This document shows positions 56,894-64,000 of a stretch of DNA of 64,000 bases, in pieces; the first letter of the stretch is position 1; every line of letters begins with the position of its first letter. A program made the translations under genes and the position numbers. Source of the stretch: Marinilabiliaceae bacterium ANBcel2 (GTDB lineage Bacteria > Bacteroidota > Bacteroidia > Bacteroidales > Marinilabiliaceae); NCBI GenBank assembly GCA_029688995.1, contig JARULA010000002.1, positions 124,001 through 188,000 of the forward strand, read 5' to 3'. The notes under the pieces are model-generated. The model had not been told where the DNA came from and did no database searches. It was given only the letters and a program-made list of their open reading frames with translations.

Positions 56894-57213
56894 CCTGTTT
56901 AAATAAGATCTGTAAACATTGCAATGAAAGGTCCACAAACCCTCTTTTTTTGTTAGGTTTAATAAGAGAGAACCATGATGTATTACTGCATGGTGTGATA
57001 GTAGTAAAAGTAAAGCCACACTTTTGTGACAAAATAACCAAACTCATTTGAATATTAAAAAATGAGATACATAAGGAAAATTAATTACCATATACGCTTA
57101 TATTGATTTGCGGATTTGGAAATAGATCAAGCATATTTAAAACAGAAATAGGAGAAAACAATTTTGTTTTCTCCTATTTCTGTTTTAAATATTTTAACTC
57201 TATTAATTTTTAA
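56894..57213. other. Convergent intergenic region without a gene
   Basis: The first 240 bp show no gene or tRNA; they contain a short hairpin (ACCATG at 56972, CATGGT at 56989). The last part is a very strong inverted repeat that forms a bidirectional terminator. Confidence 0.6.
57133..57192. terminator. Perfect 28-bp inverted repeat, bidirectional terminator
   Basis: Positions 57133-57160 are the exact reverse complement of 57165-57192, with only a 4-nt loop (ATTT). The core arms read AGAAATAGGAG and CTCCTATTTCT, flanked by AAAACA/TGTTTT runs, so each direction ends in a T-rich tract. It lies between the convergent CDF gene and the secreted protein gene. The length and perfection are unusual for a terminator. 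Confidence 0.8.
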
Positions 57214-57669
57214 TTAGAAGCCCATTTCCCCTTCGCTATATTGCTTAACAAGAGAGATAACCGCCTCGGCACACCCTTCTCCTCCACCTCTGAAAGAGAA
57301 AACCAGACTATAAACTTTGGTTGATCGGCATACAAATTCGAAGGAGTCGTAGTGAGTTCCGCCGTCATAATTGCTTACAAGCATATTATCCTCATCGTAT
57401 AGTTGCATAACTATTTTATCTCGATTTGATGGTCCGTCAACCACATTAAAACGATAGTGGTTACGGCTATTCAGTAGTACATTAAATTTTACCTGACCCG
57501 TTTTTCCTCCTCCGTCATCTTTTTCAATGTTTATTGAATAGTCTCTTATATATTGGCTGTTTCCCATTTCATCAAGAGCCTGACGTTTAACTTCTTCTCC
57601 GCATTGGGCAGATGCTGATATATATGCTAGACTGGAAATAAATAATAAACTAAATAATACCCTTTTCAT
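57214..57669 (-). CDS. Hypothetical secreted protein
   Basis: This 151-residue protein has a clear signal peptide (MKRVLFSLLFISSLAYISASA, cleavage near residue 21) and a mature part predicted to be a beta-sandwich with three Cys (about 23, 113 and 132). I do not recognise the family. It is encoded downstream of the Sia-like/ABC module on the same strand, with a 115-bp gap from the lipoprotein gene, and ends at the 28-bp hairpin. It might belong to that module, but the gap leaves this open. Confidence 0.65.
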   Translation of the reverse strand: MKRVLFSLLFISSLAYISASAQCGEEVKRQALDEMGNSQYIRDYSINIEKDDGGGKTGQVKFNVLLNSRNHYRFNVVDGPSNRDKIVMQLYDEDNMLVSNYDGGTHYDSFEFVCRSTKVYSLVFSFRGGGEGCAEAVISLVKQYSEGEMGF

Positions 57670-57784: not shown

Positions 57785-58708
57785 TTATTCTACAATTTTA
57801 TTTCTTATCCTTTTAATTGTAGCAACAATATTGTCCATATCTTCAGGCGTGTAATCTACTATACTTATTTCATCCTGAACAAAAATTAATCGGCCATCCT
57901 GTTCAATGGTTTCAGGTTCTCCCAGTTGGGTCGTTATAGAAACGTTGCTGTACACTTCTTTTAACTCCCTTATATCTTCAACTAATTCTGCAAAATTTGG
58001 CTCAGATGAGTAGTTATCAAGTATTATTTCCAGTATGTTAATAACATTTTTCTGTTCTGCTATACTATGAGCTATATTTTCATCACCTGTCTGTTCATAT
58101 ACATTTGCAGCAATGTAGAGCCCCTCTATCCATGTTCCTGTAACTATAAGGCTACTTACATTACTTCTGTTTTGATCACGAAGATAGTTGTCCATTTCAT
58201 TAAAGCTTGATATGGACATTTGCATTAGTGAATCCAGATTTGTTGATCCTGAAGCCATTCTTCTTAGTGCATTAAAATCGAAGAATTGTCCTACTCGAAT
58301 TCCTTCTGCAAGTGTTTGTATAGCCATTAAATATCCAACAACGATATTATTTTTATCGAAGGTATTAATATAACCTAAATCAGCACTGTAAACGCCTAAG
58401 TTTAATGCTCTTTTAAAGCTTGTTTGATAACTGTTTGCATTATCTGGATCATTCATTATTCTTTGTGAGAACTCAACCCCCGATCTTTTAAACATATTGG
58501 CCATTTCTACCGGAGAGGAGACATTTCCAATTACTTCGTTCATGATCTCTTCAGACAATTTTAAAGGGGCATCGGAGCTGATAAGAGAGTCGGGAAGCAT
58601 AAGCTGGTCATCATCCTGTTGTCCTGATCTGTCTGAGCAGCCTCCACAGCTGCTTAATAGTTGAAATCCGGCAAATATAAGCAGTACAAAAAATAAATTC
58701 TTTATCAT
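57785..58708 (-). CDS. Hypothetical lipoprotein
   Basis: This 307-residue protein has a lipoprotein signal (FAGFQLLSSCGGCSD, Cys at about 21) and a mainly helical mature domain with an acidic start. A stretch ALNLGVYSADLGYINTFDKNN and later IEGLYIAANVYE are repeated in style, suggesting an all-helical fold. I do not recognise the family with confidence. It follows the TerB-ABC transporter gene by 69 bp on the same strand and probably belongs to the same operon, perhaps as its periplasmic partner. Confidence 0.7.
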   Translation of the reverse strand: MIKNLFFVLLIFAGFQLLSSCGGCSDRSGQQDDDQLMLPDSLISSDAPLKLSEEIMNEVIGNVSSPVEMANMFKRSGVEFSQRIMNDPDNANSYQTSFKRALNLGVYSADLGYINTFDKNNIVVGYLMAIQTLAEGIRVGQFFDFNALRRMASGSTNLDSLMQMSISSFNEMDNYLRDQNRSNVSSLIVTGTWIEGLYIAANVYEQTGDENIAHSIAEQKNVINILEIILDNYSSEPNFAELVEDIRELKEVYSNVSITTQLGEPETIEQDGRLIFVQDEISIVDYTPEDMDNIVATIKRIRNKIVE

Positions 58709-58777
58709 GATTACAATAATTTAAATTTTCTGGTTAAGTAGTTACTCTGTTATTATACTAATTAAATATATAAAAGG

Positions 58778-61700
58778 TTACTTTTTAAATATTTTTATTC
58801 TGCTGCCATAATTGAGAGCTTTAGTTAGCAGGTCGTAATATAATACTATGTAGAGAATGATTGTTAAAACCCATACCATTGCAATATTAAACCATAATGT
58901 TTCAAAATAATTTCCTCCAAAATGTTTTGCTGGAGCAAAAAAATGGGTTCTAAAATCGACAAAATTACCGGGTTCAGGTTTTTGATATATGGGATCGGCC
59001 ATTTGTACCAATTCATTACCCTGACGAACAATTTTATTTCTCTCAAGCTCTCTTCTTACTATTGATGAGATACTCTCATTGTAGTGATCATTTTTAATTC
59101 GGTTGAACCTGTCGGGATCGGCATTTAAATTTGCCGAGATAAACTGATCTTTTTGTGAGTTTGCCTCTCTAAATATTGCTCTGTAATAGGAGCGTAGCTC
59201 GTTTAAATATTGATCTGCCGCATTTGCAGTACTATTATCAAAATCTTCTGCATTTAGGTTTTCCAGATAGTTGAATTCAATGTCAGGAACACGTTTTTTC
59301 TCTTTAGAGAATTCGTTATAGAGTAATTTTAAATCATTTATAAAATCTTTATCATCTCTATTTTTATCATCCAGAATATGTACTGTTACCTGGTCCAAAA
59401 TATGCTTTAATTCGGGGATATAATGTACCTGTTTGAAATCGGCTTTGCTCTCCCTTTTTTCGATTTCAAAATAGTTTCTTTTATAGTTGTTGTGTTTATA
59501 TTGATGCACTATAAGACCTTCGTAAATATATCTTGAAGGCATAAATTCTGCAACTGCAGGAACTTTATCTACGCTGGTAAAATCTTTATTTAATTTGTCA
59601 AAAGTGAACATTGCACCTCCCAATACCATTTGAGGAATCATTACCAGTGGAATCAATATATATATTGTTACTATTGAGTTGAATGATGCCGATAAAATTA
59701 GTCCGAGAATATTAGCAAATGCTGATATTGTAAACAGAGCAAGCCAAAATTCAAAATTCATATTTTGAATACCCAGTATGCTGTTACCTACCCAAACGAA
59801 CAGTAACATTTGAATAGCTGAGATGGTAAAAAGAATTACAATTTTTGAGCCTAAATAACTTGACCGGCTTAATTTCAAAAAGGATTCACGTTTTAATATT
59901 TTGGCATCTTTAAAGATCTCCTCTGCACTTACGATTAATCCAAAAAAGAGTGCTACTACTATTCCCATAAAGATATAGGGGGCAATATTTTCATTTTCGC
60001 GAAATATATATACATCAGATGCAGGGTCGGCAATATATCTTATGAGATAGGCCAGTATAAATCCTAAAAATGGTGCTTCTAACAGATTTAAGAGTATATA
60101 CTGTTTATTACCTATTTTTGAAAAGAAATCTCTAAGAGTATATATTTTAAACTGTTTAAACCATGATGGTATATTCAATGATTTTGGTGGTGGGGTAGTT
60201 ATTGAGTTAACTTTTGGTATTGGATTCTCTTTTTTGAAATTTTCGTGCCACTCTTCGGGTGAAATTTTTCTTTTGTTTGTGTAATTTCCATACTCATCAA
60301 TTACACTGGCATCTATAATATTGAAAATAAGTTCGGGGTTGAGATTGCCACAAGTTGGGCACTCTCCCTGCTCACTGTTAATTTGTGCGTCGAGTTGTTT
60401 AAAGTAGATTAATGATTCTCCGGGGTTACCATAATATACGGGATATCCACCTGTATCCAATATATACATTTTATCAAACATTTTGTATATGTCGGATGAC
60501 GGCTGATGTATTACTACAAATATTAGCTTCCCTTTAAGAGCCAATTCCCTTAAAAGATTCATAACATTTTCTGAATCCCTCGATGATAGTCCGGATGTAG
60601 GTTCATCTACAAATAAAATAGCTGGTTCCCTTATTAATTCTAATGCTATATTTAGACGTTTTCTTTGACCACCGCTTATCATTTTATTTAGGGGAGAGCC
60701 TACCTTTAAATCTTTTCTCTCATATAATCCCAAATTAACAAGAGTGTTGTTAACCAAAGAGTTTATCTCTTCTTCGCTTTTATCTTTGAAGCACAGTTTT
60801 GCATTGTAGTAGAGGTTTTCAAATACTGTAAGCTCTTCAATTAAGAGATCATCCTGGGGGATTAATCCAATAACACCTTCTACTTTCTCTTTTTCGGTGT
60901 GAAGGTTAGCACTATTTATTAATACTTCTCCCTCGGTTGGCGTTTCGGTACCCGAGAGAACATTTAGGAGTGTTGTTTTTCCGGCACCTGATGCACCCAT
61001 AATCCCAATAAGGCGCCCCTGCTCTTCAGCAATATTGATATTGCGTATTCCAATTGTACCGTTTTTAAACTGGTACTTAACATCTTTTACCTCGTAGCTT
61101 ATTTTAGCAGAATCTGCATCAGTTAAAAAGTGGCCTGCTACATCGGTGTAATAGATAGGCTTTCCTTTGGGAACTCTTATAAAACTACCTTTTGGGAATA
61201 GATAAATCCTTTTGGAATTTATTCCCATTCCATTTAAAAATAGCTCTTGATCGCCAGTATAGCGCATAAAATAGAGGTCTGCGCTCTTTACTCTTAAAAT
61301 GATTACAGAGCCATTAAGGCCGTTGGTTAATATATGTTTGTTTTTTCTTTCCTCCTCTTCTGAATCATTGGCAATCATAAAATCGGGATGATTCAGTTTT
61401 TCGGGATCATTATGCAGGCCAAATATCTCTATGGCTGTTTTCTCATTTTCAGATATTTTGAAGACATCAGCAACGGTATTTATAATTGCTATCCGTTGCT
61501 CTGTCATCTTCATATCCATACTAATTAGTTCGTATAAACGAACCAGAACAACAATTTTTTGTTCCCTGTTGAGTTTTCGGTTAATTTTTTTGCAGATGCC
61601 AAGAATTTTCACCGAATCTTTCATTGATGTTAGCTGTACCTTCTTCTCCTCCTTCTCTTTCGCATCTCTTTTTTTTGCATCCGCTGAATGTTTCAAAAAC

Positions 61701-61849
61701 AGATTGAAATACTCCTCTACTGCTTCTGAATTAAGCTGCTGTTTTAAGAATGTACGAACATATTCGGTTTCGTTCGATTCAACTCCACCGTCCTGTTTGG
61801 TTAGCAAGCCAAACAGTTGCATCAATGCTTTTAATATCTCTTCACTCAT
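58778..61849 (-). CDS. ABCG-type ABC transporter fused to an N-terminal TerB-like domain
   Basis: This 1023-residue protein is a half-transporter with extra domains. An all-helical TerB/DjlA-like region spans about 1-145. A small beta region (about 170-245) precedes the ATPase, which has Walker A GASGAGKT (285-292), signature ISGGQRKRLN (391-400) and Walker B AILFVDEPTSGL. A CPTC pair (497-500) links to an ABC-2 membrane domain with helices near 588-606, 625-643, 668-690, 700-722, 728-748 and 990-1010. A long loop (about 780-985) lies before the last helix. It starts 13 bp after the SiaC-like gene, so partner switching may control it. Confidence 0.88.
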   Translation of the reverse strand: MSEEILKALMQLFGLLTKQDGGVESNETEYVRTFLKQQLNSEAVEEYFNLFLKHSADAKKRDAKEKEEKKVQLTSMKDSVKILGICKKINRKLNREQKIVVLVRLYELISMDMKMTEQRIAIINTVADVFKISENEKTAIEIFGLHNDPEKLNHPDFMIANDSEEEERKNKHILTNGLNGSVIILRVKSADLYFMRYTGDQELFLNGMGINSKRIYLFPKGSFIRVPKGKPIYYTDVAGHFLTDADSAKISYEVKDVKYQFKNGTIGIRNINIAEEQGRLIGIMGASGAGKTTLLNVLSGTETPTEGEVLINSANLHTEKEKVEGVIGLIPQDDLLIEELTVFENLYYNAKLCFKDKSEEEINSLVNNTLVNLGLYERKDLKVGSPLNKMISGGQRKRLNIALELIREPAILFVDEPTSGLSSRDSENVMNLLRELALKGKLIFVVIHQPSSDIYKMFDKMYILDTGGYPVYYGNPGESLIYFKQLDAQINSEQGECPTCGNLNPELIFNIIDASVIDEYGNYTNKRKISPEEWHENFKKENPIPKVNSITTPPPKSLNIPSWFKQFKIYTLRDFFSKIGNKQYILLNLLEAPFLGFILAYLIRYIADPASDVYIFRENENIAPYIFMGIVVALFFGLIVSAEEIFKDAKILKRESFLKLSRSSYLGSKIVILFTISAIQMLLFVWVGNSILGIQNMNFEFWLALFTISAFANILGLILSASFNSIVTIYILIPLVMIPQMVLGGAMFTFDKLNKDFTSVDKVPAVAEFMPSRYIYEGLIVHQYKHNNYKRNYFEIEKRESKADFKQVHYIPELKHILDQVTVHILDDKNRDDKDFINDLKLLYNEFSKEKKRVPDIEFNYLENLNAEDFDNSTANAADQYLNELRSYYRAIFREANSQKDQFISANLNADPDRFNRIKNDHYNESISSIVRRELERNKIVRQGNELVQMADPIYQKPEPGNFVDFRTHFFAPAKHFGGNYFETLWFNIAMVWVLTIILYIVLYYDLLTKALNYGSRIKIFKK

Positions 61850-61862
61850 CTGCTATTGTGGG

Positions 61863-62249
61863 TTAGTCTTCGTCGACGTAAGGTAGATAATCAAAAGGTA
61901 TTTCAACTATATCAGAGTACTCTTCTCCTGCTTCAAGCATATCCTCTTCATCCTCTTCGTAATGCCACTTAATAACAACCTCTTTACCATCTTCAACAAT
62001 CTCTTCAAATTTTAAGAGTATATCTAAAATTATTTTTGATGAGGCAGTATTAAAATATTCCAGTTTAAAATTGAACTCTGTTCTGTCATTGGGGTCTTTG
62101 GCATATTCATCAATCCAGTCAAGAATTTGTTCATAAAACTGATTTACATCTTCAGGCAGCGATCTCCCGGATATTTCAAATTGACCGCTATCTTTATCTA
62201 ATATTACGTTAGGGGTATCATCTGTTCCTTTGATGTTAATTACTTCCAT
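61863..62249 (-). CDS. SiaC-like regulatory phosphoprotein (DUF1987)
   Basis: This 128-residue protein matches the SiaC/DUF1987 family: INIKGTDDTPNVILD, FEISGRSLPEDV and FKLEYFNTASSKIILDIL. The probable phosphorylated residue is Thr68 in NTASSK, the same number as in Pseudomonas SiaC. The C-terminus is acidic. In the known system, SiaC is phosphorylated by SiaB, dephosphorylated by SiaA, and in the free form activates a diguanylate cyclase. Here no cyclase is adjacent. It lies 16 bp after the kinase gene and 13 bp before the transporter gene. Confidence 0.88.
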   Translation of the reverse strand: MEVINIKGTDDTPNVILDKDSGQFEISGRSLPEDVNQFYEQILDWIDEYAKDPNDRTEFNFKLEYFNTASSKIILDILLKFEEIVEDGKEVVIKWHYEEDEEDMLEAGEEYSDIVEIPFDYLPYVDED

Positions 62250-62265
62250 AGTAGTTCTCTTTTTT

Positions 62266-62832
62266 TCAGTTTCTTCTAATTGTTGATGTTAAAATAAAGA
62301 AGGATACCTGTTCATTTAACTCTTTAAACTGGTACGATAATTTACTGCCGGTCTTTTTAGCTATATCAATTAGTCCCAATCCGGCACCTCCTTTTTCAGA
62401 CAATGAAGCTTCTCTTATCTGCTGCTTAAACAGATCGGATAATCCCTTTTTATCTAAACTGTTTATTAGCTCAAGAGTTTCTTGAAGTCCTTCAACTCTC
62501 TCGTTTTTGATAATGTTACCGGTTATGATTTTATAAGTATCATCCCCTTTACTCACCATTACAATCCCTCTGCGGTCTTCATCATCTTCACTTAGTCCAT
62601 CAGCATGTTTACTTATATTTTGTAAACATTCAACCATTACATTAAAAACCTTTTTTTGCACTGTATTTGATTCAGCACTTTTTGAAAGGTTTTTTTCTGT
62701 TAATGCTGTAAAAGTTTTTGTAATTTCCTGAGTCACTTCACCCTCATATACAAGACTAATCTCGTTAGTCTTCATTGTTTTATAGAGTTGATAAGCAAAC
62801 TCCAGAAAGTTGTGTTTTTCTTTTTCCATCAT
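62266..62832 (-). CDS. SiaB-like protein kinase (DUF6272)
   Basis: This 188-residue protein is a GHKL-type kinase of the SiaB family. It has an N-box-like VFNVMVECLQNISKHA and a glycine-rich KGGAGLGLIDIAKKTG. It should phosphorylate the SiaC-like protein encoded 16 bp downstream. The longest frame begins with TTG at 62844; the ATG at 62832 is preferred. It follows the PP2C gene by 38 bp. Confidence 0.85.
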   Translation of the reverse strand: MMEKEKHNFLEFAYQLYKTMKTNEISLVYEGEVTQEITKTFTALTEKNLSKSAESNTVQKKVFNVMVECLQNISKHADGLSEDDEDRRGIVMVSKGDDTYKIITGNIIKNERVEGLQETLELINSLDKKGLSDLFKQQIREASLSEKGGAGLGLIDIAKKTGSKLSYQFKELNEQVSFFILTSTIRRN

Positions 62833-62870
62833 ATTTTGGTTCAAATAATCAAAATTTTGTGTAAATATAG

Positions 62871-64000
62871 TTACAATTCAATTCCTATCAATAAAACATC
62901 ATCAACTTGTTTTTCGTCACCCATCCATTCATGGAACTCTTTCGAGAATGTACGCGAGTATTGGGCCATACTAATATTATCATCGGCAGTTAAAAGTTCT
63001 CTAATTCTTCTGGGCTGAAACTTTTTTCTTTTTGGCCCACCAATTTGATCAGGTAACCCATCACTAAAAATAAATATTTTATCCTCTTTTTCGTAATTAA
63101 TAACGTGATGTTCAAAATCTTTTTCAACTTTTTTTCGTAATGGGATACCACCAATAGCTTTTCTGCTCCCTTTGTATTCATGCAATTCACCATTTCGTAT
63201 TAAGAACAGGGGGCGGTTTGCGCCTGCAAAATCGAGTGTTTGATTCTTTTTATCTATAATGCATAGTGCTAAATCCATTCCATCTCTTCCTTTTGCTCCT
63301 TCCTGATCCTGTTTTAATGTTATTCTAACGTTTGAGTGCAGGTCATCCAAAATTTTAGCAGCAGACTCATTCTCCTGAGCATTAACAATATTATTTAATA
63401 AGAAGTAGCCGATAAAACTGATTAGTGCTCCCGGAACCCCATGTCCTGTGCAGTCCACTGCTGCAACATATGAGATATCTCCTTTTTGAAAAAACCAGGG
63501 GAAATCACCACTTACCACATCTTTGGGGCGGTAAAAAATGAAAGATCTGGGGAAGTAGTTTTGTATAAGATCTGTGTCGGGTAATATAGATGTTTGAATT
63601 CGTTGTGCGTAGTTTATACTGTCTGATATTTTCTTATTCTTCTCTTTAATATCCTGTTCAATCTTCTTGAACTCTGTCATATCATGCGCTACAAAAAGGA
63701 TTGTTTCCAGCTCTCCTTCTTCTCCCAGTTCCGGGATAGCCTTAATCTCCATTATTCTTTCACCCGATTTTGATAGCATAGTTACCTCAGAGATGGTCTG
63801 TTCCTGTTGCTCTCTTATATCGGTTAAGCTGGTTTCTACATATTTAGTGAATCTTTCATCTATCTCTATATCACTTATTCGTTTTTTTATTAGATCCGAT
63901 GGTCTATCGGCAACAAATTTTGATACTGCCGGATTTACATAAATAAGTTTTCCGGTGAGATTAATTCGCACTATCATATCGGGAGAGTTCTCCGATAAAC
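62871..64000 (-). CDS. PAS-PP2C (SpoIIE-type) phosphatase, SiaA-like (5' end outside window)
   Basis: The frame continues past the first in-window ATG (63977) to the window edge, reading L-S-E-N-S-P-D-M-I-V-R-I, so the N-terminus is missing. The visible part has a PAS domain (SPDMIVRI...YVNPA through FVAHDMTEFKKIEQDI), a short coiled coil and a SpoIIE phosphatase with DVVSGDF, DCTGHGVPGALISFIG, GMDLALC, FSDGLPDQ and DDVLLIGIEL, which supply the metal-binding Asp residues. It probably removes phosphate from the SiaC-like protein. The missing part may contain further sensor domains. Confidence 0.88.
   Translation of the reverse strand, partial: LSENSPDMIVRINLTGKLIYVNPAVSKFVADRPSDLIKKRISDIEIDERFTKYVETSLTDIREQQEQTISEVTMLSKSGERIMEIKAIPELGEEGELETILFVAHDMTEFKKIEQDIKEKNKKISDSINYAQRIQTSILPDTDLIQNYFPRSFIFYRPKDVVSGDFPWFFQKGDISYVAAVDCTGHGVPGALISFIGYFLLNNIVNAQENESAAKILDDLHSNVRITLKQDQEGAKGRDGMDLALCIIDKKNQTLDFAGANRPLFLIRNGELHEYKGSRKAIGGIPLRKKVEKDFEHHVINYEKEDKIFIFSDGLPDQIGGPKRKKFQPRRIRELLTADDNISMAQYSRTFSKEFHEWMGDEKQVDDVLLIGIEL

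Follow-up and report, generated by a model that had tools for sequence, protein, structure and literature searches.

The stretch of DNA considered here is a window of 64,000 nucleotides from Marinilabiliaceae bacterium ANBcel2 (C12:124001-188000, C12 standing for contig JARULA010000002.1), whose genome has a size of 2.98 Mb. At the right end of the window lies a run of minus-strand genes in the order SiaA, SiaB, SiaC, TABC and lipoprotein, in which TABC is a label for a protein made of a TerB domain, an FHA-like domain and an ABCG-type exporter. A preliminary description had proposed a five-gene cassette in which the Sia trio leads with gaps of 13-69 bp into a transporter and a lipoprotein, and all five genes were indeed found, intact and on the minus strand, the gaps being 26 bp between SiaA and SiaB, 16 bp between SiaB and SiaC, 13 bp between SiaC and TABC, and 69 bp between TABC and the lipoprotein. 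The list of genes was incomplete, however, as a sixth gene coding for a small secreted protein named x belongs to the unit and a chemosensory cluster lies upstream. The features are the following.

62871..64000, minus strand: SiaA-like phosphatase, truncated where the window stops (872 amino acids in full, C12:186871-189489)
62266..62844, minus strand: SiaB-like GHKL protein kinase, with a TTG start as listed
61863..62249, minus strand: SiaC-like phosphoprotein of the STAS-like fold family PF09345
62046..62048, minus strand: codon of SiaC Thr68
58778..61849, minus strand: TABC half-transporter (TerB, FHA-like and ABCG-type), 1023 amino acids
61415..61843, minus strand: TerB domain of TABC, residues 3-145
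61601..61630, minus strand: candidate SiaC-docking motif TSMKDSVKIL, TABC residues 74-83
61175..61381, minus strand: FHA-like beta domain of TABC, residues 157-225
60410..61093, minus strand: nucleotide-binding domain of TABC, residues 253-480
59600..60097, minus strand: first membrane segments of TABC, residues 585-750, from hydropathy and the ABC2_membrane match
58898..59599, minus strand: stretch of about 230 residues separating the final two hydrophobic regions of TABC, residues 751-984, predicted periplasmic (by hydropathy only)
57785..58708, minus strand: lipoprotein, 307 amino acids, of a family without a Pfam name
57214..57669, minus strand: sixth gene, for the small secreted protein x, missing from the preliminary description
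57139..57186, no strand: probable terminator closing the unit, formed by a perfect inverted repeat of 20 bp

The first three proteins make up a SiaABC module, consisting of a PP2C/SpoIIE phosphatase, a GHKL kinase of the SiaB family and a SiaC-family protein with Thr68. Full-length SiaA has predicted transmembrane segments in residues 21-85, a GAF domain (169-281), a PAS domain (494-604) and a PP2C/SpoIIE domain (675-871). It matches the SpoIIE profile with 57.0 bits at a cut-off of 25 (E=1.1e-14 for the domain), and the catalytic metal-binding motifs of PP2C are all there (SGDFPW, DCTGHG, SDGLPDQ, and DDVLL). SiaB scores 174.6 bits against the NCBIfam family SiaB_fam_kinase NF038262 (cut-off 85) and 144.3 bits against Pfam DUF6272; an ATG at 62832 or 62829 is a likelier start than the listed TTG. 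SiaC matches PF09345 with 144.6 bits (cut-off 24.5) and the P. aeruginosa SiaC structures in a phmmer search with E=1e-19, and the closest SiaC among named relatives comes from Marinilabiliaceae such as Anaerophaga and Carboxylicivirga. Scores for the NCBIfam equivalogs of P. aeruginosa remain under the cut-offs, with 174.3 of 700 for the window-cut SiaA, 88.2 of 225 for SiaB, and 92.2 of 150 for SiaC. Thr68 of SiaC, which had been said to be kept, does align with Thr68 of P. aeruginosa SiaC, the residue phosphorylated there, and stands beside the likewise kept Y65, N67, and S70 and an acidic stretch near residues 101-110. It is found in 97 of 97 TABC-linked SiaC sequences as compared to 76% of 42 other SiaC sequences; as about a quarter of the SiaC proteins away from TABC are devoid of this threonine, some members of the SiaC family may not be phosphoswitches.

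In TABC the nucleotide-binding domain precedes the transmembrane domain in one chain. The profiles ABC_tran (E=4e-30) and ABC2_membrane (E=2.5e-19, residues 566-783) match, Walker A (GASGAGKT), SGGQ, DEP, and the H-loop (IHQ) are present, and an ABCG1 chain was aligned to residues 249-754. This architecture is that of an exporter of the ABCG/ABC-2 type, and export is predicted. An AlphaFold model of the first 250 residues (predicted local distance difference test, pLDDT, 90; predicted template modelling score, pTM, 0.87) yielded one domain made of helices only and a second one of beta type. The suggestion that the former is TerB-like is borne out by Foldseek matches to the TerB structures of PG1108 (2h5n) and a COG3793 protein (2ou3), and by the Pfam TerB profile, which is matched in 93 of 105 TABC homologues at E <= 0.05 and scores 22.4 on the full TABC (cut-off 24.4) and 25.2 on its N-terminal 250 residues. 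The "beta region" of the earlier proposal is also there and can be refined to an FHA-like domain, since the top Foldseek matches are FHA domains, with a probability of 0.9-1.0 for many but E values of 0.04-1; FHA is absent from the 25 Pfam families listed for the 105 homologues. In the alignment the NG pair (N206, G207) is kept, but no SxxH and none of the canonical phosphopeptide residues were seen, so that reading of phosphothreonine in the canonical manner is unsupported and not to be expected of this domain. Tellurite-operon genes were not seen beside TABC, and a role in anti-phage defence was rejected because the matches to mad3/mad8 were limited to the ABC-ATPase.

To what extent SiaC and TABC belong together was computed from neighbourhoods and from whole genomes. 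The neighbourhood set comprised the 80 named genome loci whose SiaC comes closest to that of the host, and in 79 of them SiaC mapped on the expected strand. TABC is the next gene after SiaC in 74 of these 79, and the full order of TABC, lipoprotein, and x follows SiaC in 63, with median gaps of 57 bp from SiaC to TABC, 57 bp from TABC to the lipoprotein, and 11 bp from there to x; as the loci were picked by similarity to the host SiaC, these counts are no estimate for all SiaC. The order SiaA-SiaB-SiaC-TABC-lipoprotein-x spans Bacteroidales, Cytophagales, and others. Among 396 Bacteroidia genomes 171 have both SiaC and TABC, 7 only TABC, 22 only SiaC, and 196 neither (Fisher p ~1e-76, uncorrected for ancestry), which means that 171 of 178 genomes with TABC also have SiaC. 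The numbers from loci and genomes exclude that trio and transporter are not conserved together, an outcome which the preliminary description had set against its own proposal. A GGDEF domain was found neither in the host genome nor in any of 40 sampled genomes with TABC and SiaC, using a search that was positive in eight control genomes. SiaC therefore cannot act via a cyclase there, and a cyclase encoded elsewhere, which had been considered as its target, is ruled out for the host and these 40 genomes. That the trio is tied to a transporter and not to a diguanylate cyclase thus holds by gene order, by co-inheritance, and by the absence of GGDEF. A fusion of SiaC with TABC as proof of contact does not occur among 33 Bacteroidota SiaC frames (123-163 amino acids). 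In other Bacteroidota families SiaC is found with no TABC nearby and must therefore have other partners too.

In a second arrangement, which occurs in several families and in the host genome on contig C30, SiaB-SiaC is convergent with TABC. Residue 69 of SiaC is alanine in 96% of the operon-type pairs and serine in all convergent-type pairs. The paralogous system of the host (L004 5446-9950) consists of an x-like gene and TABC2 convergent with SiaC2-SiaB2, with 14 bp between the convergent stop codons; no SiaA or lipoprotein homologue was detected in the 18 kb taken around it.

A motif in the TerB domain which depends on SiaC was found by inspection, comparing the TABCs of SiaC-bearing genomes with those of seven SiaC-less genomes. 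The most changed block of the N-terminus comprises T74, S75, S79, V80, and L83, which are 81-100% conserved in the presence of SiaC, whereas without SiaC S75, S79, and V80 occur in 0 of 7 TABCs and L83 in 1 of 7. The neighbouring core residues C86, I89, N90, L93, Q97, K98, and E107 are kept in 6-7 of the 7 SiaC-less TABCs, and ten control TerB positions are 93% identical in them. The motif has the family consensus [RK][RKL]TS[VL].(.)SV[KR].L and forms in the predicted structure a flexible basic loop running into helix 76-90. Its strict pattern is present in 88 of 96 TABCs adjoining SiaC, most of the others being near-matches, in 28 of 36 with SiaC elsewhere in the genome, and in 0 of 7 without SiaC. 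As the motif had been spotted by inspection, a prediction for 16 further genomes was fixed before looking at them, according to which eight SiaC-less genomes should lack it, in seven SiaC-bearing ones one or more TABC copies should carry it, and an incomplete genome from a SiaC-bearing genus was expected to have it as well. The prediction proved correct in all 16. On a tree built without the N-terminus the SiaC-less TABCs devoid of the motif stand at at least four places, some of them as sisters to motif-bearing TABCs of SiaC-bearing relatives, with losses in about four lineages. In three genomes that have two TABCs, the motif is present in one of the pair and missing from the other. Exceptions go in one direction only, SiaC occurring in a few genomes whose TABCs all lack the motif. 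As the motif so closely tracks the presence of SiaC it is probably the place where SiaC binds, and this presence with SiaC and absence without it provides strong but indirect backing for a docking of SiaC on the TerB domain.

From these findings it appears rather probable that the locus codes for a six-gene, signal-controlled export system in which the SiaC switch gates TABC. SiaA as a membrane PP2C phosphatase with GAF/PAS sensors and SiaB as kinase would set the phosphorylation of SiaC at Thr68. Unphosphorylated SiaC would dock on the basic motif (residues 74-83) of the N-terminal TerB domain of TABC and switch export, more likely on than off, and phosphorylation of Thr68 would break this contact. 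TABC may work together with the dedicated lipoprotein and the small secreted protein x on the periplasmic side, and the upstream chemosensory cluster would probably feed SiaA. Docking, the direction of control, the substrate, and the chemosensory input are what we infer from the genes and their distribution; activation is judged likelier because SiaC activates SiaD. In the P. aeruginosa complex unphosphorylated SiaC places its Thr68 between the stalk helices of SiaD, where it contacts Ser82/Gln86, basic residues of SiaD pair with acidic residues of SiaC, and phosphorylation of Thr68 prevents binding to SiaD (PMC8457831). The TABC motif resembles this contact in its composition of basic, serine and hydrophobic residues, and the contacting face of SiaC is conserved, hence the proposal that the exporter is gated by unphosphorylated SiaC binding to the TerB motif. 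Serine, valine, and leucine of the motif could be where a SiaC-like face sits. For the more specific statement that a STAS-like phosphoswitch gates an exporter directly, by binding of unphosphorylated SiaC to a short linear motif of TerB in a TerB-ABCG fusion, the chances are put at slightly better than even.

Several points weigh against this mechanism. The stalk motif of SiaD and the motif of TABC could not be aligned residue by residue, their composition alone being similar. The motif could serve SiaB or SiaA, which were probably lost along with SiaC. A test by independent contrasts had four pairs at its disposal, all in the same direction (p = 0.125), and with so few of them p = 0.05 is out of reach from contrasts alone. 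In six SiaC-bearing genomes, one of them with SiaC fused to SiaB, the TABCs are all motif-less, so that SiaC should have other partners there. Binding of SiaC to TABC, phosphorylation, and transport are predictions from sequence and model.

The serine- and threonine-rich character of the motif, its position in a flexible loop, and the FHA-like domain which follows would also suit a substrate site, in which serine or threonine in TS..S of TABC would be phosphorylated directly by SiaB and dephosphorylated by SiaA, with the FHA-like domain as reader and SiaC as a side player or competitor. SiaB accompanies SiaC at nearly every mapped locus, and Rv1747 of M. tuberculosis is an FHA-bearing ABC exporter regulated by proteins of threonine phosphorylation (PMC5549992, PMC3908365). 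Since, however, the known SiaB acts on SiaC (PMC7647112), the conserved V80 and L83 suit a docking helix better than a phosphosite, and the SxxH phosphopeptide signature is not visible in the FHA-like domain, this explanation is considered unlikely. An equally low probability is given to the view that SiaC and TABC merely share an operon and a regulon, such as an envelope-stress or surface-attachment programme, and that SiaC has its target elsewhere without contact to TABC. The frequency of SiaC away from TABC (42 sequences, up to 10 SiaC copies per genome) and the families in which no TABC is near SiaC speak for it, but the motif in TABC depends on SiaC even where SiaC is not adjacent, the pair is kept in two different gene arrangements, and no cyclase is available in the sampled genomes with both. 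That SiaC senses or stabilises the transporter and TABC is a sensor of the BceAB kind instead of an output, where binding of SiaC would feed the state of the transporter back to SiaA/SiaB and the chemosensory cluster, is very improbable: signalling transporters (Bce-type) are known and, of the 59 close TABC-linked loci whose upstream sequence is long enough, 47 have same-strand CheB/CheR homologues ahead of SiaA, but TABC with its lipoprotein is found without SiaC (7 of 7 loci) and has therefore a job of its own, and SiaABC has a known output role in Pseudomonas.

Among known systems SiaABCD of P. aeruginosa comes close to the one described here, which shares with it the PP2C phosphatase, the GHKL kinase, SiaC with Thr68, and a putative target downstream of siaC in one operon (PMC7647112, PMC8457831). 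It differs in that the target slot is occupied by a TerB-FHA-ABC exporter with lipoprotein and secreted protein instead of the GGDEF enzyme SiaD, that the host proteins score below the equivalog cut-offs, and that the host genome is devoid of GGDEF. The nearest analogue, on a works-like analogy only, is Rv1747 with PknF and Rv2623, an ABC exporter with an N-terminal FHA fold encoded together with proteins of threonine phosphorylation and bound by a phosphothreonine protein (PMC5549992, PMC3908365). Rv1747 contains two FHA domains and lacks TerB, its kinase is of the Hanks type, and its phosphothreonine-FHA contact is canonical, whereas the FHA-like domain of TABC looks degenerate and TerB is the candidate site of contact, the partner being STAS-like. 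In HsbA-HsbD and BgrV-BgrR, as far as they are cited in PMC8457831, an effector enzyme is bound and controlled by a STAS-like protein whose phosphorylation is reversible, while the effector here would be a membrane exporter. TerB proteins such as PG1108 and COG3793 have the same helical fold, but in TABC it is fused to an ABC exporter and encoded in a Sia operon.

No description of a Bacteroidota Sia-TABC system was found in the literature searched, which left out subscription papers and preprints; in it SiaABC is described only with SiaD in Pseudomonas, and DUF1987, the SiaC family, only in PMC8457831, whose authors proposed, as a general role of DUF1987 proteins, that they tune the activity of the proteins next to them. 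The SiaABC switch and the exporter class each belong to a known kind; within the literature searched, what is new is that the two are coupled and that TerB carries a candidate docking motif. If true, the proposal would add a second class of SiaABC effectors, unrelated to SiaD and at wide phylogenetic scale, and a first role for a TerB-ABC fusion, found in ~43% of the Bacteroidia genomes sampled and frequently placed within a chemosensory cluster that would feed the exporter switch. An ABC exporter would come under the control of partner switching, TerB would gain a function outside tellurite operons, and chemosensory clusters of Bacteroidota without GGDEF enzymes would have an output. The 10-residue candidate docking site is testable by point mutants.

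The lipoprotein has the lipobox LSSC with a cysteine (Cys21) which is at least 90% conserved in 95 homologues, and no Pfam family is common to these 95. Its AlphaFold model (pLDDT 87) is predicted to be mostly helical, and a fold search gave no match in the PDB. Since all seven SiaC-less loci have a homologue of it close to TABC, it belongs to the transporter and not to the Sia trio. An acidic signal for surface export of lipoproteins has reportedly been described; it is absent from positions +2 to +6 of the homologues, which speaks against a surface-exposed lipoprotein and fits better with the periplasmic side. Both points amend the earlier idea, which had placed the lipoprotein on the other side of the membrane. 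The lipoprotein is followed by x in 65 close loci, and x starts with a hydrophobic segment. Between the inverted repeat behind x and position 64000 no other terminator-like site was found on the minus strand.

The chemosensory cluster, C12:189505-204538 (L003 5506-19001, L240 1-2039), lies directly upstream of SiaA on the same strand. It codes for a GAF protein, CheB, three CheR, GAF-PAS, CheB-REC, CheD, a histidine kinase, two CheW, and CheA, and in addition for HPt, receiver, and STAS proteins, a methyl-accepting chemotaxis protein, and a YfiR/HmsC-like protein, named by Pfam scan and for the remainder by reading the sequence. It is plausible that the Sia switch receives a chemosensory input.

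A few further arrangements of SiaC were observed. Small genomes of one family (f97, eight genomes) have four to five SiaC genes and a TABC match that is only weak. Near a tandem SiaC pair (L195 10001-10804) homologues of SiaB, SiaA, or TABC were not detected. Isolated SiaB-SiaC pairs at three loci from three genomes of one further family (L330-L332) adjoin a small secreted protein, a J-domain protein, and an S46-like peptidase, as read from the sequence, which are a possible further set of SiaC partners. Two SiaB-like kinase genes in tandem precede SiaC at four loci (L214, L219, L245, and L194), and in one genome (L329 1039-1965) SiaB and SiaC are fused to a single protein of 308 residues.

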